Source: a virus. From it: a DNA stretch of 26,502 nt. The stretch lies in the IMG/VR virus record IMGVR_UViG_3300000167_000020, positions 1 to 26,502 of that record, one strand, 5' to 3'. Of this stretch, positions 3,239 to 22,230 are shown in pieces (within the stretch, counting starts at the first letter, position 1; each line of letters begins with the position of its first letter). Below the pieces are notes generated by a model. The model worked only from the letters and a program-made list of their open reading frames with translations. It was not told the DNA's origin and made no database searches. The translations under genes were made by a program, and so were the position numbers.

Positions 3239-3246
3239 TATTTATT
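3239..3246 (-). promoter_or_regulatory. Late promoter box AATAAATA
   Basis: AATAAATAC on the minus strand, 36 bases upstream of the ATG at 3203, giving a leader of about 30 bases. The TAA stop codon of the upstream gene (3247..3245) directly precedes TAAATA. A 17-base identical copy of this segment (3233-3249) occurs at 5330-5346. Confidence 0.65.
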
Positions 3247-3769: not shown

Positions 3770-4573
3770 TTAAGCGTCAAACTCATCGCCACCATACTTG
3801 AGGCGGTAAGCCATTGGGTCTTTTTCAAACTCAATTTGCCCTGCTGATTTTTTGTTTGGATCTGTTTTGGGTTTTACTAATTGTGCTGTTTGATTTTTTT
3901 GTTGTTTGTATAATTTTAATTTATTAGTAATATCTTGTTGATACTTTAATCCAGCATCTCCTTTAGGAGTTGGACCAGTATTATACATTCGTGATGCTTC
4001 ATCATCTGTTTTTGCACCATATTTTTCTTTTTGTAATTTCCAATATAATCCAGCAGTTCTTATATTATCTTCAGGATCATCTAAATTTACTGAGCGACCA
4101 AGATAATTTTCTACATCTTTTCTTGCTCCTGCTCTAATTTGACCTATACCAAATGCAGTACCTTTATCACCGGTGAGTGTTTTTCCAGTTTTATCACTTG
4201 TTTGATTAAAACTTGATTCTTGATGTAAATGAGCAGCTAATCTTTCATATGGAATACCAAGTTCTTTTGCAATTTTAGCAATACGATCTTTATATAATTT
4301 ATATGAGTTTGGAATTTCTAAAGATTCTTTTAAAGGCAACCTAACTTGTATTTCGTTTTCATTTATTTGAGTATTACGAATAAAAGCAATCTTGCCTTCT
4401 TTTTTAACACGTTTAAATACAGACTTATTAACCAATCCATTAGCAGTATGAACTTCTCGTTCTGTCAAATCTTTTTTGTATACTGGTTCACTGGAATAAG
4501 AAAGTAAAAACTCACTTTCTACTAAATTAATATATACTAAAGCGGCCAGGCCTGCTATATGTGCAAATCTCAT
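3770..4573 (-). CDS. Lytic transglycosylase (SLT-like) protein
   Basis: 267 residues. A goose-type/SLT lysozyme-like domain spans about residues 95-215: catalytic glutamate E119 in HLHQESSFN, the FGIGQI motif at 141-146, and YNTGP at 197-201, the standard order ES, GxxQ, Y/NxG of soluble lytic transglycosylases. It would cleave peptidoglycan glycan strands with formation of anhydro-muramyl ends, during entry (virion-borne) or release. The N-terminus (IAGLAALVYINLVESEFLL) is moderately hydrophobic, so a weak signal anchor is possible; LVE/S could alternatively be a prohead-protease site. The Lys/Pro-rich C-terminal tail has no recognised domain. Two bases separate it from the upstream gene, and a coil-plus-TM protein lies nearby at 6536. 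Confidence 0.85.
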   Translation of the reverse strand: MRFAHIAGLAALVYINLVESEFLLSYSSEPVYKKDLTEREVHTANGLVNKSVFKRVKKEGKIAFIRNTQINENEIQVRLPLKESLEIPNSYKLYKDRIAKIAKELGIPYERLAAHLHQESSFNQTSDKTGKTLTGDKGTAFGIGQIRAGARKDVENYLGRSVNLDDPEDNIRTAGLYWKLQKEKYGAKTDDEASRMYNTGPTPKGDAGLKYQQDITNKLKLYKQQKNQTAQLVKPKTDPNKKSAGQIEFEKDPMAYRLKYGGDEFDA

Positions 4574-4575
4574 AG

Positions 4576-5058
4576 TTATAGCACTGTTACAACAGCACCT
4601 CGTCCTAATCTATTAATTGTTTGATATTTTTCTGCTCTTGATCGTTCATCTTCAAAACTAATCATTCCATCACTATTATCAACATCAATATAATAGTTCA
4701 TACCATGTATTCTAGTTTCTGTAGCATCAGGATCCGCTGGATCTGTTGCTACTATCATATTACCATGTATAGAAACAACTTGCCATTCTCTATAACCACC
4801 ACCAGGCTGTGCTACTCTAAACGTAGAACCCAGGCCCATTTGTTTAGTAATAAATTGGGTTTGTTCTGCTTCTGTAAATTTAGGTTTAATAACTAGGCCT
4901 TGTGAACTGTCTTTATCAATTCTTTTATCATTTAAATCAACAACAGTTTCAGTATTATCACCTTCATTACCTACCAAAGGTAATTCACTGCCTCGCACAG
5001 GGCCGGCAATTGAATATTGTCCTTCAGTAATTGCTAAAAATAATTCTACTAGTTTCAT
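4576..5058 (-). CDS. Late protein with capsid-targeting-like N-terminus
   Basis: 160 residues. The N-terminus MKLVELFLAITE/GQYS resembles a T4-type capsid-targeting propeptide ending in I-T-E before Gly. The rest appears beta-rich and acidic: GLGSTFRVAQPGGGYREWQVVSIHGNMIVATDPADP suggests a small barrel-like fold, followed by a charged helix and a final VVTVL strand. No family recognised. Its ATGA overlaps the stop of the basic protein gene upstream (5055-5327), so the two are translationally coupled and probably share the late promoter at 5336-5343. A packaged internal protein or a minor head protein is inferred from the N-terminus and partner only. Confidence 0.75.
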   Translation of the reverse strand: MKLVELFLAITEGQYSIAGPVRGSELPLVGNEGDNTETVVDLNDKRIDKDSSQGLVIKPKFTEAEQTQFITKQMGLGSTFRVAQPGGGYREWQVVSIHGNMIVATDPADPDATETRIHGMNYYIDVDNSDGMISFEDERSRAEKYQTINRLGRGAVVTVL

Positions 5059-5327
5059 TTTGACGCCGCGTTTAACTTTGTTTTCATTATACTCGCTGGA
5101 TTTGTACGCATAGTTCTCTTTGACTTTCGTCTCATTTTAGAACCAATTTTTGCTTTAAGCATTTTCAATCTAAAACGTTTTTTAATATCTGGGGCCGCGA
5201 AACATTGTGATGGTTTTGATACTATACGACTTTTGCGGCGACCTGACGTACAGCGATACTTACGAACGAGTTTATTGCCAACCCGCCCCCATGCCATTTT
5301 TGCTTCAAAGAGTTCTTCTAAATACAT
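5055..5327 (-). CDS. Small highly basic DNA-binding-type protein, candidate internal head protein
   Basis: 90 residues, about a third Lys/Arg. N-terminus MYLEELFE/AKMAWGRVGNK: the first eight residues look like a capsid-targeting propeptide with L-F-E before Ala, the classic T4 gp21 cleavage context, and the conserved core AWGRVGNKLVRKYRCTSG begins right after it. I recall this basic family (WGRVGNKxVRKYRCTSGxRxGR, then DIKKR, ending in TNPAS) widely in marine T4-like phages, without an assigned function. Two cysteines (CTSG and CF) could bind metal or form a disulfide. A basic, probably cleaved, late protein fits an internal DNA-condensing or co-ejected protein. Late-promoter box nine bases upstream. 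Confidence 0.8.
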   Translation of the reverse strand: MYLEELFEAKMAWGRVGNKLVRKYRCTSGRRKSRIVSKPSQCFAAPDIKKRFRLKMLKAKIGSKMRRKSKRTMRTNPASIMKTKLNAASK

Positions 5328-5335
5328 TGTATATG

Positions 5336-5343
5336 TATTTATT
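5336..5343 (-). promoter_or_regulatory. Late promoter box AATAAATA
   Basis: TAATAAATAC on the minus strand, eight bases before the ATG at 5327. The first TAA (5344..5342) is the stop codon of the upstream SGNH-like gene. It is part of a 17-base segment (5330-5346) identical to 3233-3249. Confidence 0.65.
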
Positions 5344-6523
5344 AAAGTTTTACACCTTCCTTAAGAAGAACATTTCTAGAAATATATGCTAAAAATTGAT
5401 GATAAAGTTCTGTTGGATGGCTTAAATCTCTAGCATATGGATATTTAATATTTTCTTCTATACATTCTCTAGTTTGATTCTTAAAAAATTCTGATGCGTA
5501 ATCCTTTACATCAATATAATTAATAACATTATCCAACTTATCAAATAACACTGTAGGTATATCTAAATCGTGCGATAATTCACGTTGTTTTGTACTTCCT
5601 AAATATTTCATAGGTAATTTATTAATTGATGCATTAATTAATGTTTCAAATTCTAATCGAATTCTTTTTTCATGTTCTATCATATCATCTTGGCCAAAGC
5701 CTGCTATCTTTTTATATGTAGAAAAACTATCATAAACTACAGAAAATGGATGAAATGATTTAAAAAGAATATTGTTATTTTCACAAATCTCGTTCATAAT
5801 AGCATAATTTTTAGTTAAATTATTATAATTTTCACAATTACTAGTTATTTGTTGATAATATGGCATATATTGTTCTCTACTAGGTAATACAGATTGATGG
5901 TTGTGTTGTAATTCACTAAGTATTACATCATCGTTTTTAAACACGTTAGATGATTCCATTTCTGTTAGGAAATATCTATTAACAAGTCTTCTTCCTGGAT
6001 TTGTAGGGGACCACAAAACTATATCAGGTTTAATAATATCAATTAATTGATAAAGAGAAATAGCATTTAAATCTGCTGATGCACCAGGTATTGATATATT
6101 ATACACTTTTGCTTTATTAGATATATTGTTACACCAAACATCTTTATCATCAACACCAGTACCAAATGCTATACTACATCCTAATGTTAATATTTTCAAA
6201 TCAGAATCAGTATCAAATGGTTCAGACCTGTAACCATGAGCATTAAATGTGTAATTAATATCTTTATTATGATATTTAGGATTTAATTCTTTATGCTGTT
6301 TGTTTTTGTTATAATGTTCTTCTGAATCAGTGTCATGCCACTTATAGCTATGACTTTTTATACCATCATAAAAATTTTTATATAATTCATTCGCACTATC
6401 AGACAAAGACTCGTTACGGTTACGCTTATCCCAATTAACATACGTACTAAGAATTGGAGGTATGAACGGATTCCAAAAGTTTTTAGTCCATTGAGAAACA
6501 TTATATAATTCATCGAATTTCAT
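5342..6523 (-). CDS. SGNH/GDSL hydrolase-like protein
   Basis: 393 residues from the ATG at 6523 (a TTG one codon upstream is less likely). An SGNH-hydrolase fold is suggested by block I LTLGCSIAFGTGV (the nucleophile Ser is residue 117 from the ATG), block II IPGASADLN about 30 residues later, and a C-terminal D-x-x-H (ARDLSHPT) that supplies the Asp/His pair. The preceding NAHGYRSEPFD motif is also typical of this family in phages and polysaccharide-modifying proteins. Likely an esterase or acetyl-hydrolase acting on a glycan or lipid; substrate unknown. The middle region (residues 170-340) is helical and not diagnostic. The late promoter at 6530-6537 suggests late expression, so a virion or envelope-modifying role is possible. 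Confidence 0.7.
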   Translation of the reverse strand: MKFDELYNVSQWTKNFWNPFIPPILSTYVNWDKRNRNESLSDSANELYKNFYDGIKSHSYKWHDTDSEEHYNKNKQHKELNPKYHNKDINYTFNAHGYRSEPFDTDSDLKILTLGCSIAFGTGVDDKDVWCNNISNKAKVYNISIPGASADLNAISLYQLIDIIKPDIVLWSPTNPGRRLVNRYFLTEMESSNVFKNDDVILSELQHNHQSVLPSREQYMPYYQQITSNCENYNNLTKNYAIMNEICENNNILFKSFHPFSVVYDSFSTYKKIAGFGQDDMIEHEKRIRLEFETLINASINKLPMKYLGSTKQRELSHDLDIPTVLFDKLDNVINYIDVKDYASEFFKNQTRECIEENIKYPYARDLSHPTELYHQFLAYISRNVLLKEGVKL

Positions 6524-6529
6524 CAATGA

Positions 6530-6537
6530 TATTTATT
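6530..6537 (-). promoter_or_regulatory. Late promoter box AATAAATA
   Basis: TAATAAATATC on the minus strand; TAAATA ends six bases before the ATG at 6523 (predicted leader of about one base). The stop codon TAA of the upstream gene (6538..6536) directly abuts TAAATA, the same arrangement as at 3239 and 5336. Confidence 0.65.
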
Positions 6538-6784: not shown

Positions 6785-6913
6785 AATAATCCTTTAATGT
6801 CATACAAAAAATGCCTTCCGCCCGCCCTATATTATGTGCCTTTACAAATGCCAATCATTTCGCCTAAAATGAGCCTAAGTCTCTGCCTAGTATAATTATT
6901 TATGAAGGGTGGG
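6785..6913 (-). promoter_or_regulatory. 129-base leader region with late promoter box CATAAATA (6897-6904)
   Basis: The longest gene-free stretch in the window. On the minus strand it opens with CATAAATAATTATA (box at 6897-6904), which would give a leader of about 105 bases to the coil/TM gene. Within the leader I see a weak hairpin (TCATTT/AAATGA, loop TAGGCG), a G-rich run (GGGCGGGCGG) followed by a T6 tract without a matching stem, and the AAAGGA site next to the gene. No ORF or RNA gene is apparent. Confidence 0.5.
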
Positions 6914-7975: not shown

Positions 7976-7983
7976 TATTTATC
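7976..7983 (-). promoter_or_regulatory. Late promoter box GATAAATA
   Basis: GATAAATAATATT on the minus strand, upstream of a predicted 47-base leader that contains AGGAG. Serves the 108-residue protein gene at 7923. Unlike the five-base cases, this gene has a conventional leader and ribosome-binding site. Confidence 0.65.
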
Positions 7984-8012: not shown

Positions 8013-8759
8013 TTACTTCTTCTTAGCACCAAAAGTATAATCAAAATCAGTATCTTGATAGCCAGTTATCCCTTTTGCTAGTTTCTTACCCAACCAATAA
8101 CCAGCAACACCGGAGGCGGCCGCCGCCGCGGCTTTTGCACCAAAGGATGTTTTTCCTGCTATTTCAGAATTATGTACATCTTTAAGCTCATAACCACCCT
8201 TACGAACAAATGTTTCATATGGACTACGTAAATCACTACGAGCAGACTTTGATCTTATTGCTTGTAATAAACGAGTTGTACTTAATTTACGTTCACTACC
8301 AAGCAGTCTATTCCAATCACTCAATAATCTTCGTGTTGCACTATATTGAGCATTATGAATACCTAAATTTCGCTCTAAACTCATTAAAAATTGTTTATCA
8401 AAATTTGGATTTACTTTACCACTTGCCACTTGCCGCAAATATTGTTTAAATTGTAATATTGGTATATTTGCTCTTCCAGCAGGACCTATTTTATCAACAT
8501 ATCTATCTGCTTGATTAAAAACAGCGACCCAATTATGTAAATCTGTAGCAGTAGTACGAATATTATCAAAACCAGGATTCATCATTGTTTTTTTAGCATA
8601 TTCTTGTGCAAATTTCATTGAATTAGGATCATGCCGCATTGCCTGAAGTGATAAAACATTCATATAAATGTTTTCTGCCACTTGCTCAGCACTCATATTT
8701 TTCAATCCACGTTGATTACGTAATGCTTTTGATTCGTATAAATCTTTAATAAATCCCAT
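8013..8759 (-). CDS. Helical basic protein with capsid-targeting-like N-terminus and glycine-zipper segment
   Basis: 248 residues, mostly helical and basic. The N-terminus MGFIKDLYE/SKAL matches the capsid-targeting-like pattern, with L-Y-E before Ser. A central region repeats Arg/Leu helices (LQFKQYLRQVASGK; TRRLLSDWNRLLGSERKLSTTRLLQAIRSK). Residues about 207-230 (AKAAAAAASGVAGYWLGKKLAKGI) form an Ala/Gly small-residue segment that could insert in membranes, as in ejected internal proteins. The C-terminus is FGAKKK. No family recognised. The TAAATA box lies exactly five bases before the ATG and its TAA is the stop codon of the upstream gene. A protein packaged in the head and ejected with the DNA is my best guess. 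Confidence 0.75.
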   Translation of the reverse strand: MGFIKDLYESKALRNQRGLKNMSAEQVAENIYMNVLSLQAMRHDPNSMKFAQEYAKKTMMNPGFDNIRTTATDLHNWVAVFNQADRYVDKIGPAGRANIPILQFKQYLRQVASGKVNPNFDKQFLMSLERNLGIHNAQYSATRRLLSDWNRLLGSERKLSTTRLLQAIRSKSARSDLRSPYETFVRKGGYELKDVHNSEIAGKTSFGAKAAAAAASGVAGYWLGKKLAKGITGYQDTDFDYTFGAKKK

Positions 8760-8764
8760 AATAC

Positions 8765-8772
8765 TATTTACC
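8765..8772 (-). promoter_or_regulatory. Late promoter box GGTAAATA
   Basis: GGTAAATA followed by GTATT and then the ATG at 8759: core five bases before the start codon. The TAA is also the stop codon of the ligase-like gene upstream (8770..8768). The first two bases depart from TATAAATA, so this is a weaker match by sequence but exact by spacing. Confidence 0.5.
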
Positions 8773-10033
8773 CTCCTGCCAGGAAGTTACGTCGTGAAAA
8801 TTCCAATCTATTAATTAATTTTACAGCGCCACCAACATGGTCTATTGCTACAAATCCTTCTGGACCGGCAACTTCATAACCATTATCTGTTTTATAAAAT
8901 GCTTGTATGCCTTCTATAGCATTAAGTTTTTTCATTAATATTGACTTAACTTGTATAATTTGTTTATAAACTGCCAATATTGCCAGCAACGTGTTACTAT
9001 TATCTTCAATAAATGCCCTAGTTGCTTCTATTTTATTAATACGTGCTTCGGCGGCCGGACTCCATCCTGATGCTGTTTTATCAGAAGCACCACCATCTTT
9101 AAGTTTATCTATTTCTGCTTGCTTTTTACTATCATAGTAATCAATGAATTCTTTCAAAAAAGCATTAGCATTTCCAACTTGTGGTCGGTCTGCTCTAATT
9201 TTACTATTAACAAATGGTTCAATATGTTCTCTAAACTCTTCATTGTTCATTAGTGTATTAAATCTATTTGCATTTATTTTTTGCAAAATTCCTTGTAATT
9301 TATCAAGTCCATTTGCTACTTGTGCTGTTTCACGTCCAGTCATTGTAGCACGACCAGTTAAATCTCTATAATCAGCATCTTGTGACCATACATTTTTATT
9401 TCCTACAGGGGCGGCCGCACCAAATGATGCTGTCAAATCTGACATCTCAGGACCACCACTATATAATGTGTGCCATACAACACCAATCTCAGCCGCAAGT
9501 AATTCTTTTGCTAAATCACTGCCCGCTGGAACAGCATATGCTATTTCATTTGGTTTAAAAACAACATATGACTCACCATCTATATCTTCAGTTGTCAAAT
9601 CACCTTTAGTAAACATAATATCGCCTTGCAATATACCGTCAAAATTAAGTTTACGCAAATGTTTTAATGCTATATTTAATTTATGTGCTAAACCTGGTAT
9701 TTTACCATGATTTTTTCTAATATCTGCAGGAGTTTTATTTAATAATGGAGTAGCATTAAATACACTTTTTGTTCCTACAAAAAACTTACCATCTTTAGGA
9801 TCATTACCAGCAATTACAGCAGGCTTACCATCCCATTTTACAGATATTCTACCCGCTTCGCTTGTTCCTGCTAACATTTCTGCTGTTTGTGCAAGATGAT
9901 TTATTGCTTTTTTTACACCTTGGTAACCTTGATAAAATACTAAATCCTCTATATGAGTCATATGAGTATTTTTGCCGCCAGTATCTTCAACGATCATCCA
10001 TTTACATTCACCTTGAACTTCAAATAGTTTCAC
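8768..10033 (-). CDS. Candidate nucleotidyltransferase (DNA/RNA ligase-like), capsid-targeting-like N-terminus
   Basis: 421 residues, GTG start overlapping the upstream TGA. Motifs appear in the order of the covalent nucleotidyltransferase (ligase/capping enzyme) superfamily: motif I K66-W-D-G in RISVKWDGKPAV, with K66 as the candidate AMP-accepting lysine; GKFFVGTKS (83-90) like motif Ia; FDGILQGDIMF (131-141) like motif III/IIIa; EGFVA (392-396) like motif IV; and AVKLINR (403-409) like motif V. A helical insertion lies between. I recall homologues as uncharacterised proteins of marine T4-like phages, so the ligase reading is mine from motifs. The extreme N-terminus MKLFE fits loosely the propeptide-like set nearby. 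A nick-sealing or end-modifying enzyme is possible; a catalytically dead structural relative cannot be excluded. Confidence 0.6.
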   Translation of the reverse strand: MKLFEVQGECKWMIVEDTGGKNTHMTHIEDLVFYQGYQGVKKAINHLAQTAEMLAGTSEAGRISVKWDGKPAVIAGNDPKDGKFFVGTKSVFNATPLLNKTPADIRKNHGKIPGLAHKLNIALKHLRKLNFDGILQGDIMFTKGDLTTEDIDGESYVVFKPNEIAYAVPAGSDLAKELLAAEIGVVWHTLYSGGPEMSDLTASFGAAAPVGNKNVWSQDADYRDLTGRATMTGRETAQVANGLDKLQGILQKINANRFNTLMNNEEFREHIEPFVNSKIRADRPQVGNANAFLKEFIDYYDSKKQAEIDKLKDGGASDKTASGWSPAAEARINKIEATRAFIEDNSNTLLAILAVYKQIIQVKSILMKKLNAIEGIQAFYKTDNGYEVAGPEGFVAIDHVGGAVKLINRLEFSRRNFLAGG

Positions 10034-10341
10034 TGATCGTCCTCGCCTCCAATCCGTGATGTTCGTCCTTGGCGAGTTGTTCTATCACTTGTACGCAACC
10101 CAGGTTTCTTAGACGTAACTTTTGGTTTTGCTAGATTTGCCAGATTCGACTCTGGCTGCTGGTAGAGCTGGTTGATATGATCATCACTACCAATACCAGT
10201 TATATTTTTAAAACCAGCCCACGCACCACTAGGTAATTTTTTTAAATAATTTAAAATATTATTTCCAACCTTACCTTCCCAATCATGTGATCCTGACGCG
10301 AGAAATCCATGGTCTTCTTTTATAAAGTCTTTTGCTCTCAT
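10030..10341 (-). CDS. Small late protein with capsid-targeting-like N-terminus
   Basis: 103 residues. N-terminus MRAKDFIKE/DHGF aligns well with the T4 internal-protein propeptide style (MKTYQEFIxE), with I-K-E as a possible cleavage site. The body is short, with an amphipathic NNILNYLKKLP helix and a basic, Ser/Thr/Arg-rich C-terminus (KPKVTSKKPGLRTSDRTTRQGRTSRIG) that could bind DNA. Overlaps by four bases with genes on both sides (ATGA upstream; GTGA with the ligase-like gene), so it is translationally coupled with both. No family recognised. Confidence 0.75.
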   Translation of the reverse strand: MRAKDFIKEDHGFLASGSHDWEGKVGNNILNYLKKLPSGAWAGFKNITGIGSDDHINQLYQQPESNLANLAKPKVTSKKPGLRTSDRTTRQGRTSRIGGEDDQ

Positions 10342-11436: not shown

Positions 11437-11444
11437 TATTTATA
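11437..11444 (-). promoter_or_regulatory. Late promoter TATAAATA inside the 3' end of the helicase gene
   Basis: TATAAATACCATT on the minus strand differs by one base from the extended T4 late consensus TATAAATACTATT as I recall it. Its TAA (11442..11440) is the stop codon of the helicase. Marks the switch from replication genes to late genes. Confidence 0.8.
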
Positions 11445-12855
11445 TGTCATCTGAAGCACTCATATTACGTAATAAAGATCTTATTTTGCTTCCACTTGCT
11501 TCAGCAGTTACTTTAGGTGTATCCTCATTAGGTTGTACTGTTGCACTTCTGTTTATTCTGTCAAATATATTTGTTGATTGTGATTGTGTTGCTGTATAAG
11601 AAGTATCTTCTTCTGGTTGTGCATCTTCTCCCAAGTCTCGTATACGCAAACTGCTTATATCAAATTCCAAATCTACTTTAGAACCAACACCGCTACTACT
11701 TCTTGTTTTCATAAACTGTACTTGATAACGTCCACGCTCACGCATTGCTCTACTTGTAAAAATACCAATAACATTATCTGCTGTATTAATTTTACTAATA
11801 CCACCTGCAATGTGACTATGATCAAATTCTATTTCGTCTACTGCACTTCTGTTTAACTGCGATGCTGTGACAAATACAACATCTAACTCTTTGGATAAGT
11901 TACGCAGTTCTTCTGCAACATACTTGTCTTTAACATATAAATCACTTGGTGCTACTTTAGTGCTTATTGGCATACACAAATCTAAATAATCTACTAACAC
12001 TACGTCTGCTTTCATACCTTTTTGCACATTTAATTCTTTTATATAACTGCGAAAGTCATTAATGTTACTTTGTGCTGGCATATATTTTATTTGCAAGCTG
12101 CCTGCTTTTTTACTTACAAGTTTAATTTTCATTTCAACAGTATCCAAATCCTTAAATATTTGGTTTGTCGGAATATTAGATATCATACTGTCAATTCGCA
12201 TTGCTGTTAATTCCTCACTCAACTCCAATGTAAAATATAATACATTGAGTCCTGCAAGTATCCAATTAACTGAGAGATTTTGCATAAACAAACTCTTACC
12301 ACTGCCACTACCACCAGCAAATATTTGTAACTCACCTCTATTAAATCCACCAAACAATTTTCTATCAAACATTTCCCAACCAGTGCTAACTTGCCCATTA
12401 CTTGTTTTTAAATTCATCAAACGTTCACGCGGATTGTCCCAATAATCAGTTCCCATGTCTGTTGTAAGGCCAACCTGCACAGCTTCCTTAATTTTGGCCT
12501 CTACTAACCCATAATCACCTTTCTCTAACAAATCCGCACTGTCTAATATCGCTCGTTCTAATTCTTTATGCCTACTAAATTGTTCAAACTCGTCTAATAA
12601 CCAATTACTATGCTCTTCTAATTGATCCATTACAATATCTTGTAATTTAGAACCTGTTTTGCTGTTTATTTGCTTTACTTCTGGCAATGCCTTATATTCA
12701 TCTACATAATTTAAAACAAAAGTTGCTATTGGACGCAAACTTCTATCAAAATTCTGTGGATTAAATATATTTTGCACCCTAACAAATGCTTCTGGATTGC
12801 TTACTAGCATTTCCAAGTATAATTTCTGTAATTCTACGTTATATTCTTTATTCAT
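11440..12855 (-). CDS. Replicative DNA helicase, DnaB/T4 gp41-like
   Basis: 471 residues. RecA-like DnaB-type ATPase: an N-terminal helical domain (1-120), STGWEMFDRKLFGGFNRGELQIF leading into Walker A GGSGSGKS at 181-188, an LYFTLELSEE segment (H1a) at 206-215, Walker B VVLVDYLD at 285-292, and VTASQLNR (sensor/H3) at 329-336. The Arg-rich region IFTSRAMRERGRYQVQFMKTRSSSG corresponds to the C-terminal motif H4 with the arginine finger. As a ring hexamer it would unwind the fork and work with the primase encoded 13 bases upstream, as gp41 does with gp61 in T4. The acidic, Ser/Thr-rich C-terminal tail (about 410-471) is probably disordered. Confidence 0.93.
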   Translation of the reverse strand: MNKEYNVELQKLYLEMLVSNPEAFVRVQNIFNPQNFDRSLRPIATFVLNYVDEYKALPEVKQINSKTGSKLQDIVMDQLEEHSNWLLDEFEQFSRHKELERAILDSADLLEKGDYGLVEAKIKEAVQVGLTTDMGTDYWDNPRERLMNLKTSNGQVSTGWEMFDRKLFGGFNRGELQIFAGGSGSGKSLFMQNLSVNWILAGLNVLYFTLELSEELTAMRIDSMISNIPTNQIFKDLDTVEMKIKLVSKKAGSLQIKYMPAQSNINDFRSYIKELNVQKGMKADVVLVDYLDLCMPISTKVAPSDLYVKDKYVAEELRNLSKELDVVFVTASQLNRSAVDEIEFDHSHIAGGISKINTADNVIGIFTSRAMRERGRYQVQFMKTRSSSGVGSKVDLEFDISSLRIRDLGEDAQPEEDTSYTATQSQSTNIFDRINRSATVQPNEDTPKVTAEASGSKIRSLLRNMSASDDI

Positions 12856-13846: not shown

Positions 13847-13875
13847 ATTATATAGGAATTACTACTAGAAGTCAA
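13847..13875 (-). promoter_or_regulatory. Consensus sigma-70 promoter for primase-helicase
   Basis: -35 TTGACT at 13875..13870, 17-base spacer, -10 TATAAT at 13852..13847 on the minus strand. Six bases then lead to the ATG at 13840, so the expected start of transcription coincides with the start codon. The TGA inside the -35 box is the stop codon of the radical SAM gene upstream. Indicates early expression by host RNA polymerase. Confidence 0.85.
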
Positions 13876-15164
13876 GAATGTATTTCATTATATACTACAG
13901 GAAAGAGTTCTTTATAATTTGTACCGCGCCGCTTATCTAATTCAGTGAGATATATATGAAATTGTTTTTGTAATTTTTTGTCAGGAGTGGACTGCTCTAT
14001 GCTTTTGGCAATACCTCTATAATATTCTTTAGTAGATATTATAATATCTTCATCAAAGTCTTGTAATTTATTAATAGCATCAATATAACCCCAGTCAAGA
14101 ATTTTTGGTCCAAAAATTGAAGGATGTACATATGGTCGGCCAGCGGCTTGCATTAAACTATTATGTACTATTTGATAATCATCTTTCCCTCTATTAGTAA
14201 CAATCCATTCATTCCACTCATTTGTTTTTTCCATTAGATCTGGTAAAGTAAATGTTGTTAATGGCATCCAACATATATTAATACCTGTTGATATATCTGT
14301 ATTTTTAAAAATATACTGAATATTCTTCTCAAATAGTTTGAGATCTAAACCAAACCTAACATATTCTGCCTCAGGTCCCCAACAATCTATACTGCCAGTC
14401 ACTTTACCACCACGAATATTATCATCTTCTATTAGTTTTTGTAACTTATCTAATCGCACTCTCGTTTTATCATGTTCTACACTAAGATTACTAAAAAATG
14501 TTATATTCAAATCAGGATTACGTTGAGTAGATAATAAATCTAATAATCTATCACTTTGTGGTTGTTTAAATGGCTCTCCACCCAAAACATATAACGTACG
14601 AAGGGATTTTAAATTTTCCTCCAGCCAAGTAAACATTTTTTCTGTAAGACTTAACTCTGTGTAATCCTCATAAACATCATATGCTACTCCTTCTGTCACA
14701 ACATCTATATGACCAAATTTGGTATTTTCTGATTGCCAAGTACTACTAAAATGCTCACCACAATATATACAAGATAAATTACAATTATTACTAAAATATA
14801 TCTCTAACTCTGTTGGAGAGACATGTACTGCTTGCGGATTATCTAATAATTCTGGAGGTGAACCAGGGGCAAATGGATGAGTTAAATGTAACATTCTATC
14901 ACTCATTCCACCAGCATCTTCTATAACTCTACAATGCTCACACCCTTTTTCAGGCCAAACGTTATCAAGCATTTGTTGTCTAGCAAGTAATTTTTCTGGA
15001 GTATTATGAAAATCAAAATTATCCGGAATAGCATCATGATTTACTCTATGACAACTGGCCGTCGTTCCTTTAGTAAGAAAAACTGTACTATGTGCCCATT
15101 TTAAACGACACTGTAAATCTGATTGTATTGGATGCAGTACTGCTGTTTTTTGAGGTTTATGCAT
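13872..15164 (-). CDS. Radical SAM protein, twitch-type
   Basis: 430 residues. The radical SAM [4Fe-4S] motif C128-x3-C132-x2-C135 lies in NNCNLSCIYCGEHF, followed by the LGGEPFKQ motif that binds the S-adenosylmethionine amino group. N-terminal cysteines (SCHR at 38; GCEHC at 75-78) precede it, as in the twitch-domain radical SAM proteins I recall from marine viruses. It should cleave SAM to a 5'-deoxyadenosyl radical; the substrate is unknown. No maturase peptide or nucleotide-modification partner is obvious next to it. One base separates it from the 124-residue gene upstream, suggesting one operon. Confidence 0.85.
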   Translation of the reverse strand: MHKPQKTAVLHPIQSDLQCRLKWAHSTVFLTKGTTASCHRVNHDAIPDNFDFHNTPEKLLARQQMLDNVWPEKGCEHCRVIEDAGGMSDRMLHLTHPFAPGSPPELLDNPQAVHVSPTELEIYFSNNCNLSCIYCGEHFSSTWQSENTKFGHIDVVTEGVAYDVYEDYTELSLTEKMFTWLEENLKSLRTLYVLGGEPFKQPQSDRLLDLLSTQRNPDLNITFFSNLSVEHDKTRVRLDKLQKLIEDDNIRGGKVTGSIDCWGPEAEYVRFGLDLKLFEKNIQYIFKNTDISTGINICWMPLTTFTLPDLMEKTNEWNEWIVTNRGKDDYQIVHNSLMQAAGRPYVHPSIFGPKILDWGYIDAINKLQDFDEDIIISTKEYYRGIAKSIEQSTPDKKLQKQFHIYLTELDKRRGTNYKELFPVVYNEIHS

Positions 15165-16381: not shown

Positions 16382-18157
16382 ATGCGTATAAAATTTATCG
16401 TATTTGGCTCAAACGCCGACACAGGTGATCTAACCACTGAATTAAGGCAAGATGGCTCACTTGAAGGAATAAATGATTATTTTCTAACGCCAATATATTA
16501 TTTCTTAAAATCTTTCTATAAAAAAATTGGAAAATACTATAACAAATACATATGGCTACCTACTGAATATGGTGAATTCAAGAATACTAGTGTAAAAAAT
16601 ATAATATCCATAATCGAAAAAGAAAAACCAGATATTATTTGTTTCTCTATGTTTTTATGGAATTTTGATGTACAAATAAAAATAGCAAATATAATAAAAC
16701 AAAAACATCCTAATATAAAACTTATTGCTGGCGGGCCGAGCATTGATCATAAAAATCCAAATACTGCTAATAACTATCCTTTTATAGATTATTTTGTCTA
16801 TGGTGATGGTGAAAAAGCTTTTACTATGTTGTTAGATAGTTTTTATGAGCCAATAGATGAAAGAACAATACCGAATTTAATAACAAAAGAATTTAAAACT
16901 AATCACGAAATCTTACGATTTAAAGATTATCCAGCATTTAGTCCATATTGTGATTTAAAAGAAGACTTTATTAATGAACATAATCAGATTACAGATTACT
17001 TAAACAAAAATACTACTAATAATTACGTACTTACTTACTCTTTCGAAAGAATACGTGGTTGTCCATATGCTTGTACGTTTTGTGATTGGAGTGGTGGGTT
17101 ACATCACAAATTAAACAAAAGATTGGGAGATTGGAAGGAAGAAATAAAGTTTCTTTCAAAATTTAATAACATATCTATGCATTGGATTGATGCTAATATT
17201 GGAATGATGAAGGAGGATATTGAAATATTTAAATTTGGTCTATCATACACAACTAATTCTTTTTCCTTTAGCGGCGGGAACATGGCAAAATTACATAAAA
17301 GCAATGTTTTTGATATATGGAGAGCTATATATGAACATGGGCGCGGCAATGTGTTTAAAGTATCATTACAACATCAAGATAAACAAATATTAAAAAACAT
17401 TAATAGACCAGAACTTCCATGGAATGAACATAAAAAATTATTAATTAATTTTAGACAAAAATATAATAAGGCAGAATATAAAGTAGAATTAATTCATGGA
17501 TTACCTGGCGCAACTATTGAAGCTCATAAAAAACAATTAATAGAATTCAGTGAAATACCTATAAGTATTGCATCTTTGTATGCATGGGAGTTATTACATA
17601 GTAGTCCTGCATATGACAAATCTTATCAAGAAAAACATAATCTAAAAATAATCACTGCTGGAGTTGTTAACACCAATGTCATAAACTCCACTATTGATGA
17701 TTTATATCATAATGTATCATCTGATAATTATAATCCAATAGAAATATATCAATCAGAGAGAATATGCGATAGTAATTTAGGTTTTAAAGAATATTTGATT
17801 ATCACGTATATGACAATATTATATAATATGTTATTTGAAACTACATTAACAACGTCTGAATACAATAAAATTAGATTTATTAACTTTTTAGATTATGCAA
17901 TGCCAATAATTGAAAAATTGGCCGGGGAGCAAACTAAAGACTGGGATGAGAAATTAGAAAAATACGGATTTATTATATTCGGGTTACCGTTTGGATCAAA
18001 TAAAACTCAAACAGTACAACTTGGCTTAGGATTGACAATGATTTGTAATAAATTATTTAGTGGATTACTTTCAGGAAATATTCAAACACCATGGTGGGAT
18101 GCGTATGGTCATATAGAAGATAAAACGAAACAAAGAGGTTCATTGAGTGAGGTTTAA
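16382..18157 (+). CDS. Radical SAM protein with B12-binding-like N-terminal domain
   Basis: 591 residues. N-terminal Rossmann-like region (1-150) matches cobalamin-binding domains of radical SAM enzymes: EKPDIICFSMFLWN, IKLIAGGPSIDH and the YPFIDYFVYGDGEKAF motif; the DxHxxG histidine motif that ligates cobalt is not seen, as in many class members. The radical SAM cluster is C227-x3-C231-x2-C234 in IRGCPYACTFCDWSG. The region YKVELIHGLPGATIEAH is typical of the B12-binding radical SAM barrel. The C-terminal 150 residues are helical. Substrate unknown; methylation or another C-C modification of a glycan or small molecule is possible. Its 3' end overlaps the convergent DnaE-like gene by 18 bases. 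Confidence 0.88.
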   Translation: MRIKFIVFGSNADTGDLTTELRQDGSLEGINDYFLTPIYYFLKSFYKKIGKYYNKYIWLPTEYGEFKNTSVKNIISIIEKEKPDIICFSMFLWNFDVQIKIANIIKQKHPNIKLIAGGPSIDHKNPNTANNYPFIDYFVYGDGEKAFTMLLDSFYEPIDERTIPNLITKEFKTNHEILRFKDYPAFSPYCDLKEDFINEHNQITDYLNKNTTNNYVLTYSFERIRGCPYACTFCDWSGGLHHKLNKRLGDWKEEIKFLSKFNNISMHWIDANIGMMKEDIEIFKFGLSYTTNSFSFSGGNMAKLHKSNVFDIWRAIYEHGRGNVFKVSLQHQDKQILKNINRPELPWNEHKKLLINFRQKYNKAEYKVELIHGLPGATIEAHKKQLIEFSEIPISIASLYAWELLHSSPAYDKSYQEKHNLKIITAGVVNTNVINSTIDDLYHNVSSDNYNPIEIYQSERICDSNLGFKEYLIITYMTILYNMLFETTLTTSEYNKIRFINFLDYAMPIIEKLAGEQTKDWDEKLEKYGFIIFGLPFGSNKTQTVQLGLGLTMICNKLFSGLLSGNIQTPWWDAYGHIEDKTKQRGSLSEV

Positions 18158-21393: not shown

Positions 21394-22230
21394 CTAGTAC
21401 GGGCTATTCATCCGGCCGGCCTCGTCATCCCAATGCCAATACTCACAATTTCCACCATGAATATGACAGTGGCCTGGACCCAACATATTAAAATGAAAGT
21501 AATCTATCATATCACCAACTCTACCATGAATATGAGCAATATGTGCTTGAGCAGGAGTATTTTCTTGTTTAAACACATCCAGTATAAAATGAGCCAAATT
21601 TTTATTATTTTCATCATTCATATGATTATTTCTTTTGGTGTCAACTGGATCAGTGTCAACATTACGGGTCCAATCTTTCTCAGATAAAAATTCTGACTTA
21701 GAAATAGCGATTAAAGGAATACGTGCCATTGGTCCACTTTTAGGTATATAATCATTCATACTGTTCTCAAAACACGGTAACCATATACATCGTTGTCTAT
21801 ACTCAAGCAACATATTATCAATTGATTGTAATAATGCGACCTGTATATCAAGATTATATTCCTCATCATACAGCATTTTATAATATAATGTAATTGCTTT
21901 TTTGTATTCGAACATTTGACTAATATTATCTTTCTCCCAATTTAAAAAAGTTGTACTCATGTTTTGATCAAAATCAACTTTAACATGTTTATTATATAAT
22001 CTATGCGGATTCGTAACACATATCACAATATAATCAACTTTTCCGATTACTGTTTTAATTTGCTTATAAGCACTATACAAGGCTGAAGCAGGTTGGCCAG
22101 CACACATAATTTCAGCACTTAATTCATATGCTATTATATCTAAATATGACACACTGTCACAATTGTAGTATGGCGTCCGGAAGTCCCGGGAGTCTGCACA
22201 AAAACTATCTCCGCAAAATGCTATTTTCAT
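21394..22230 (-). CDS. SGNH hydrolase-like protein with His-rich C-terminus
   Basis: 278 residues. Block I MKIAFCGDSFCAD has the GDS nucleophile serine S9; YIVICVTNPHR at about 68-78 matches the block III strand and Asn (SGNH N); RNNHMNDENNKNLAHFIL near residue 210 supplies the C-terminal His. The last 45 residues are unusually His-rich (AHIAHIHGRVG, FHFNMLGPGHCHIHGG), which could bind metal. Likely an esterase acting on an acylated glycan or lipid, as for the protein at 5342-6523, with which it shares only the general fold. Its start overlaps the upstream stop (TAATG). Confidence 0.7.
   Translation of the reverse strand: MKIAFCGDSFCADSRDFRTPYYNCDSVSYLDIIAYELSAEIMCAGQPASALYSAYKQIKTVIGKVDYIVICVTNPHRLYNKHVKVDFDQNMSTTFLNWEKDNISQMFEYKKAITLYYKMLYDEEYNLDIQVALLQSIDNMLLEYRQRCIWLPCFENSMNDYIPKSGPMARIPLIAISKSEFLSEKDWTRNVDTDPVDTKRNNHMNDENNKNLAHFILDVFKQENTPAQAHIAHIHGRVGDMIDYFHFNMLGPGHCHIHGGNCEYWHWDDEAGRMNSPY

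Follow-up and report, generated by a model that had tools for sequence, protein, structure and literature searches.

We propose that the DUF6267 protein encoded in the 26,502-nucleotide stretch of viral DNA analysed here (hereafter ‘the window’) is a ligase-type covalent nucleotidyltransferase, which viruses of this lineage package in their heads and which works on the ends of RNA or DNA during the first stages of the next infection; we would put the probability of this reading, taken as a whole, at roughly 55%. In catalytic terms, a nucleotide, probably AMP, would go onto Lys66 and then be passed to a nucleic-acid end, such that the protein would most likely be an RNA or DNA ligase. Within the infection cycle, it would be synthesised late, a capsid-targeting leader would probably put it into the core of the prohead, and a gp21-type protease would trim this leader after Ile-Val-Glu16; injected along with the genome, the enzyme would then repair ends at the outset of infection.

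DUF6267, whose cyanophage copies are annotated as T4-GC 71, is widespread in T4-like cyanophages, has further members in SAR11 and Methylophilales phages, and is without a described function; for this common marine-phage family, the ligase-type prediction is real and previously undescribed. Adenylation of Lys66 represents a catalytic prediction that can be tested; concerning a gene so common in marine viruses, and coupled with a predicted path of the enzyme into the next host, it would, if true, open up both the biochemistry of DUF6267 and the question of which enzymes phage heads carry.

The gene and its family

The open reading frame picked out in an earlier, sequence-only reading of this DNA, with its MKLFE start, is real; it lies on the minus strand, which that reading did not give, and encodes 421 amino acids from a GTG start that overlaps the stop codon of the gene upstream (Table 1). 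The window is itself a fragment, a 26.5-kb virus record, and near-identical proteins (94-100%) are found on other viral contigs, the largest of which reach 322 kb.

The protein is a member of DUF6267 (PF19782; E 7.3e-94, 315.6 bits against a cut-off of 27) and falls into PHROG family 455, for which the function is listed as unknown. The match to the family (DUF6267/PHROG 455/T4-GC 71) is full-length, with all motifs and the synteny with gp41 alike; most cyanophage members lack the leader described below, but nothing contradicts membership. By tblastn, DUF6267 is present in 466 phage records, chiefly from Synechococcus and Prochlorococcus phages and mostly T4-like, with further copies in phages of Methylophilales, Pelagibacter, Stenotrophomonas and Vibrio. 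It was not found in the genomes of T4 or of one Vibrio T4 relative, nor in the plasmids searched, and the family goes unnamed in the literature searched, whether as DUF6267, PF19782 or PHROG 455. A further 36 loci come from cellular genomes, nearly all of them on contigs from metagenome-assembled genomes that span unrelated phyla; these we read as phage contigs binned with those genomes.

Table 1. Positions in the window of the DUF6267 gene, its parts and its surroundings (aa, amino acids of the DUF6267 protein)
Feature	Position	Strand	Remarks
DUF6267 protein, coding sequence	8768..10033	minus	ORF call and Pfam PF19782, residues 22-418
Leader MKLFEVQGECKWMIVE, aa 1-16	9986..10033	minus	putative capsid-targeting; ends in a prohead-protease-like site, I-V-E followed by D
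HxxHxED, aa 24-30	9944..9964	minus	H24, H27, E29 and D30 in 121/121; the ligase motif set has no counterpart
Motif I, KWDG, aa 66-69	9827..9838	minus	K, D and G in 121/121; ends modelled beta strand 62-66
Motif III-like, GDIMF, aa 137-141	9611..9625	minus	inside modelled strand 134-142; Q136 and D138 invariant
Helical insertion, approx. aa 232-372 (about 140 residues)	8918..9340	minus	separates motifs III and IV; reduced in length in compact cyanophage forms
Motif IV, EGFV, aa 392-395	8849..8860	minus	E392 and G393 in 121/121
Motif V-like, AVKLINR, aa 403-409	8807..8827	minus	K405 lies 13 residues past E392
Upstream neighbour, 103 aa	10030..10341	minus	overlaps the coding sequence by 4 bases; N-terminus MRAKDFIKE, capsid-targeting-like
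Downstream neighbour, 248 aa	8013..8759	minus	N-terminus MGFIKDLYE; homologues near DUF6267 elsewhere (10 loci)
TATAAATA, candidate T4-type late promoter	11437..11444	minus	nearest upstream; at end of helicase gene; heads the gene run into the coding sequence
gp41-type replicative helicase	11440..12855	minus	DUF6267 lies near gp41 in many T4-like phages

Invariant motifs and the predicted fold

Four segments of the protein had been likened to motifs I, III, IV and V of ligases and capping enzymes, and the positions given for them are exact to the residue (Table 1). Conservation of K66 and E392 across homologues had been named as a check on that likeness, and both residues are identical in all 121 relatives of our combined alignment (sets were made of 10 first relatives, 74 long forms and 47 compact cyanophage forms, with the latter two making up the 121), even though isolated compact forms share only some 25-30% identity with the window protein. 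The same complete identity holds for D68, G69, P71, K89, Q136, D138, G393, K405 and R409, and, further, for H24, H27, E29, D30, H188, T189, Y191, N276, K363 and N416. The motif residues come in ligase order; the variable position of motif I varies in the manner of ligases (KWDG, KYDG, KIDG); E392 and G393 of motif IV are followed by F or Y and then, in 120 relatives, by V; and the spacing of 13 residues between E392 and K405 is that between E227 and K240 of T4 RNA ligase 1. Judged from the aligned sequences, the motif pattern in DUF6267 relatives exceeds chance, and we regard K66 as the candidate nucleotidyl-accepting lysine.

Known ligases have a Glu in motif III, and the ATP-dependent enzymes carry K-x-K in motif V. 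The test for the former failed here, with an invariant Asp138 (as Q-x-D) in its place in all 121 relatives, and in motif V the invariant K405 is accompanied, at the position of the second Lys, mostly by V or I, with the invariant R409 after it. The additional HxxHxED segment may be the mark of a different cofactor or substrate.

In the AlphaFold model of the window protein (pLDDT 86.5, pTM 0.83), the lysine of motif I closes a strand, a further strand contains motif III, and motifs IV and V occupy strands that lie next to each other. Comparison of the fold with ligases, which the sequence-only reading had put forward, gave a result that points the same way in part. A Foldseek search of the PDB with this model gave no significant match, with ligases (probability 0.1-0.3) scattered among carbonic anhydrases and others; in the BFVD viral library, members of the family came first, followed by the RNA ligase of Agrobacterium phage Atu_ph07 as the best-scoring match outside DUF6267 (E 4.5e-3, probability 0.97). 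A compact relative was modelled as well, to lessen the effect of the helical insertion (pLDDT 93.4, pTM 0.88), and its best 15 matches in the PDB are all ligases: DNA ligases, T4 RNA ligase 2, a Naegleria RNA ligase and RNA-editing ligase 1 (E 0.07-0.38, probabilities 0.16-0.57), although the same proteins recur among many of these entries, so that the 15 amount to a handful of independent families. Against this, neither model has a PDB match at E < 0.001, and sequence profiles provide no link. HHalign against profiles of T4 Rnl1 and Rnl2 gave probabilities below 2%, the best-aligned block being the short EG(F/Y)V...K segment; the PF01068, PF01653, PF09414 and PF09511 profiles had no match in the window protein or any convincing one in family members, with a single weak match (1 of 74 members, to RNA_lig_T4_1, E 0.017); scanning every member against Pfam with E values as high as 10 allowed returned, besides DUF6267 itself, chance-level matches only; and phmmer and hmmsearch against PDB sequences found nothing, or coiled-coil and other chance matches.

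Synthesising these findings, a ligase-like fold for DUF6267 is supported but not proven; in our judgement such a fold is very probable, and catalytic activity probable, with somewhat less assurance. Since DUF6267 failed to match the ligase profiles and lacks the Glu of motif III, we do not file it in a known ligase family: it looks like a divergent ligase-type nucleotidyltransferase, lying outside every one of them. What these failures weaken is the claim to be a ligase of a known family, not ligase-like working as such.

Set beside RNA ligases 1 (RnlA, gp63) and 2 (RnlB) of T4, DUF6267 has in common the KxxG lysine and the EG(F/Y)V motif, along with the distance of the motif V lysine from the motif IV Glu (in Rnl1) and a place for Rnl2 among the top-ranking structures found with the compact model. 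It departs from both in its lack of profile homology, in the Asp that stands for the motif III Glu and in having one motif V Lys; the helical insertion between motifs III and IV, the N-terminal HxxHxED and the packaging leader are found in DUF6267 only. The window protein also ends 12 residues past AVKLINR, so that an OB-fold domain after motif V has no room.

A putative leader towards the phage head

Ahead of this domain sits a separable leader with a cleavage-like site at its end, modelled as disordered (pLDDT 31-37), in which E16 is conserved at 90% or above in alignment A2. In T4 IPIII, the first 10 residues suffice for targeting, positions 4 and 7 being the main ones, while processing involves positions 8 and 10 and gp21 cuts after L/I-x-E (PMC9026906). 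The window leader, MKLFEVQGECKWMIVE, fits the cleavage-site part of this pattern but not the strict T4 form, with its targeting residues at positions 4 and 7; it also fits a clade-specific form, MKLFE(I/V)...[LI]xE, and the leaders of near relatives are MKLFEIKKQTPQWLLTE and similar.

More broadly, most non-cyanobacterial DUF6267 proteins carry a short leader ending in [LIV]-x-E just ahead of a conserved KNTH..H.ED. Such an [LIV]xE lies no more than 8 amino acids from H24 in 73 of 78 relatives, and 44 of the 78 have a strict T4-like leader, whereas among the 345 other ORFs of these loci 21 do. The pattern was derived from this set, and the count was therefore repeated on contigs fetched later: among these held-out relatives, 18 of 32 have the strict leader and 26 of 32 the [LIV]xE site, compared with 0/80 and 3/80, respectively, in the compact cyanophage set. 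Other ORFs on the held-out contigs also bear strict leaders (25 of 149), which probably reflects a clustering of tagged genes, and the leader accordingly sets DUF6267 apart from its neighbours less clearly than from the cyanophage forms.

Three viruses with a 95-100% identical DUF6267 protein also encode a prohead protease (PF03420), and in one of these a similar site, QYLSE followed by AA, occurs in the major capsid protein. The likeness to the T4 internal proteins IPI-IPIII and Alt thus extends to a short leader, an L/I-x-E-like site before the mature protein and a gp21-type protease in the virus group, although the mature parts are unrelated and the window leader fits only loosely. Delivery of the enzyme with the DNA, which had been floated earlier as an unusual possibility, is strengthened by the leader analysis, with packaging itself still only predicted. 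Our view is that the leader probably loads DUF6267 into the head in the window virus and its non-cyanobacterial relatives; head packaging is not a universal function of DUF6267, because the family is mostly recorded in cyanophages and most copies there are without a leader.

One could also suppose that DUF6267 is a head protein that retains a ligase-like fold and has no catalytic role. Such a role would sit well with the packaging leader and with the helical insertion of about 140 residues, but invariance of the motif lysine and the acidic residues over very divergent sequences would be unexpected without catalysis, and the compact cyanophage forms dispense with the leader altogether; we think this very unlikely.

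Virion proteomes offer a calibration through a second group of enzymes, nucleotidyltransferases of the HIGH family. Mass spectrometry has revealed tagged proteins of this kind (S-SM1 T4-GC 190, MKKFSAFLNEA; S-SZBM1_140, MRFRQFIIEA; S-CREM2 gp154, MKNFSSFLTEA) in the virions of S-SM1 (PMC3037559), S-SZBM1 (PMC9146016) and S-CREM2 (PMC10665884), the authors of the last cautioning that such proteins might co-purify with virions (PMC10665884). The untagged DUF6267 proteins SSZBM1_141, starting MAKNTHLEHLED, and S-CREM2 gp87, starting MNKATKPLTHIEHPED, are missing from the virion protein tables of these two phages (PMC9146016, PMC10665884), absence from a table not being proof of absence. S-CREM2 gp160, a virion-detected protein whose size would fit, was weighed as a candidate for the family's representative in that phage and rejected as unrelated, gp87 being the family member.

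Possible partner enzymes, neighbours and plausible late expression

The tagged HIGH-family (cytidylyltransferase/NMNAT-like) virion proteins of cyanophages share with DUF6267 a neighbourhood in many phages and the kind of leader, and the two are fused in S-PM2; they differ in fold and motif set, and it is the HIGH-family proteins that have been detected in virions. A HIGH-family gene lies near DUF6267 in 38 loci, and a PF01467 protein is encoded in 17 of 18 DUF6267 genomes searched; the T4 genome, also searched, has neither. The S-PM2 fusion is seen in the newer record, from a deletion mutant, as one 591-amino-acid ORF (L021:4992-6767); the older record gives the DUF6267-cytidylyltransferase gene as two ORFs (L016:5992-7771).

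This association suggests another role, in which a nucleotidyltransferase of the same fold, together with an NMNAT-like HIGH-family partner, would modify something else than polynucleotide ends awaiting sealing, for example a protein, a small molecule or the 5′ end of an RNA, the HxxHxED segment belonging to a different cofactor or substrate site. The invariance of that segment, foreign to the ligase motif set, and the departures in motifs III and V would suit such an enzyme as well. In the nearest relatives of the window, however, the best PF01467 protein is of another type (GGFDPIHKGH) and is encoded far from DUF6267, such that the partnership may fail in this very lineage, and we consider the idea rather improbable.

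Returning to an enzyme of nucleic-acid ends, some DUF6267 loci also carry tagged zeta-toxin-like P-loop kinases and HAD phosphatases, and some carry small, very basic proteins, part of them tagged. Capsid-targeting-like leaders were noted on genes of the kinase/HAD-type phosphatase kind at L041:3818-4537, L041:4544-5074, L055:884-1540 and L083:5504-6223. A wider and frankly doubtful speculation is that T4-like marine phages inject a packaged end-processing set, made up of the DUF6267 ligase-type enzyme and tagged HIGH-family nucleotidyltransferases, with tagged kinases and HAD phosphatases in some phages; DUF6267 would then be a new family of the ligase superfamily with an HxxHxED site of its own, possibly using NAD+ from the NMNAT-like partner.

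As to where such an enzyme would work, we infer that it would seal nicks or RNA ends in the newly entered host, as first suggested by the sequence-only reading. It might instead serve as a replication-associated DNA ligase inside the infected cell, standing in for the canonical enzyme that most cyanophages lack, with the leader incidental or there for some other purpose. The vicinity of DUF6267 includes a gp41-type helicase gene in 44 loci; DUF6267 belongs to a conserved T4-like cyanophage cluster in which it is mostly untagged; and a canonical ATP- or NAD-dependent DNA ligase is missing from most DUF6267 genomes searched, including those of S-PM2, P-HM2, S-SM1, Melnitz and HTVC008M (and none of the DUF6267 genomes searched yielded an Rnl2-type RNA ligase that passed the Pfam cut-off). 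However, the 322-kb virus encodes a canonical ATP-dependent DNA ligase as well as an identical DUF6267 protein, which weakens a replicative part for the window protein in particular, and canonical ligases are also present in DLP6 and S-CRM01; the bacterial host’s LigA would make a phage ligase dispensable, and outside cyanophages the leader is conserved together with its cleavage-like site. On balance, we regard this as unlikely.

The gene had also been placed between proteins with capsid-targeting-like N-termini, and these neighbours are real (Table 1). Leaders with a glutamate site are in fact found on several minus-strand neighbours, namely MKLVELFLAITE, MYLEELFE, MGFIKDLYE and MRAKDFIKE, at 4576-5058, 5055-5327, 8013-8759 and 10030-10341; going by these leaders, the genes concerned may encode further head-packaged proteins. 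The product of 5055-5327 is a small, very basic protein, the homologues of which keep a glutamate shortly ahead of MAW or MVW.

The description of this region as ‘late’ is plausible from where ATAAATA, the core of T4-type late promoters, occurs, although counts of TATAAATA or of ATAAATA as such do not exceed chance in the window. ATAAATA is found nine times, eight of them on the minus strand, and five of seven minus-strand sites checked fall in gaps between genes, which make up only 7.7% of the sequence. Examples on that strand are 3239-3245, 5336-5342, 6530-6536, 6897-6903 and 7976-7982, mostly in short gaps before genes.

Elsewhere in the window, the minus-strand gene at 3770-4573 encodes a transglycosylase (SLT) domain protein similar to internal virion proteins that carry an endolysin domain. 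By eye, radical-SAM-like cysteine motifs (CNLSCIYC, CPYACTFC) can be made out in 13872-15164 (minus) and 16382-18157 (plus), and a GDSL/SGNH-like N-terminal motif (LGCSIAFG, FCGDSFCAD) in 5342-6526 and 21394-22230 (minus).
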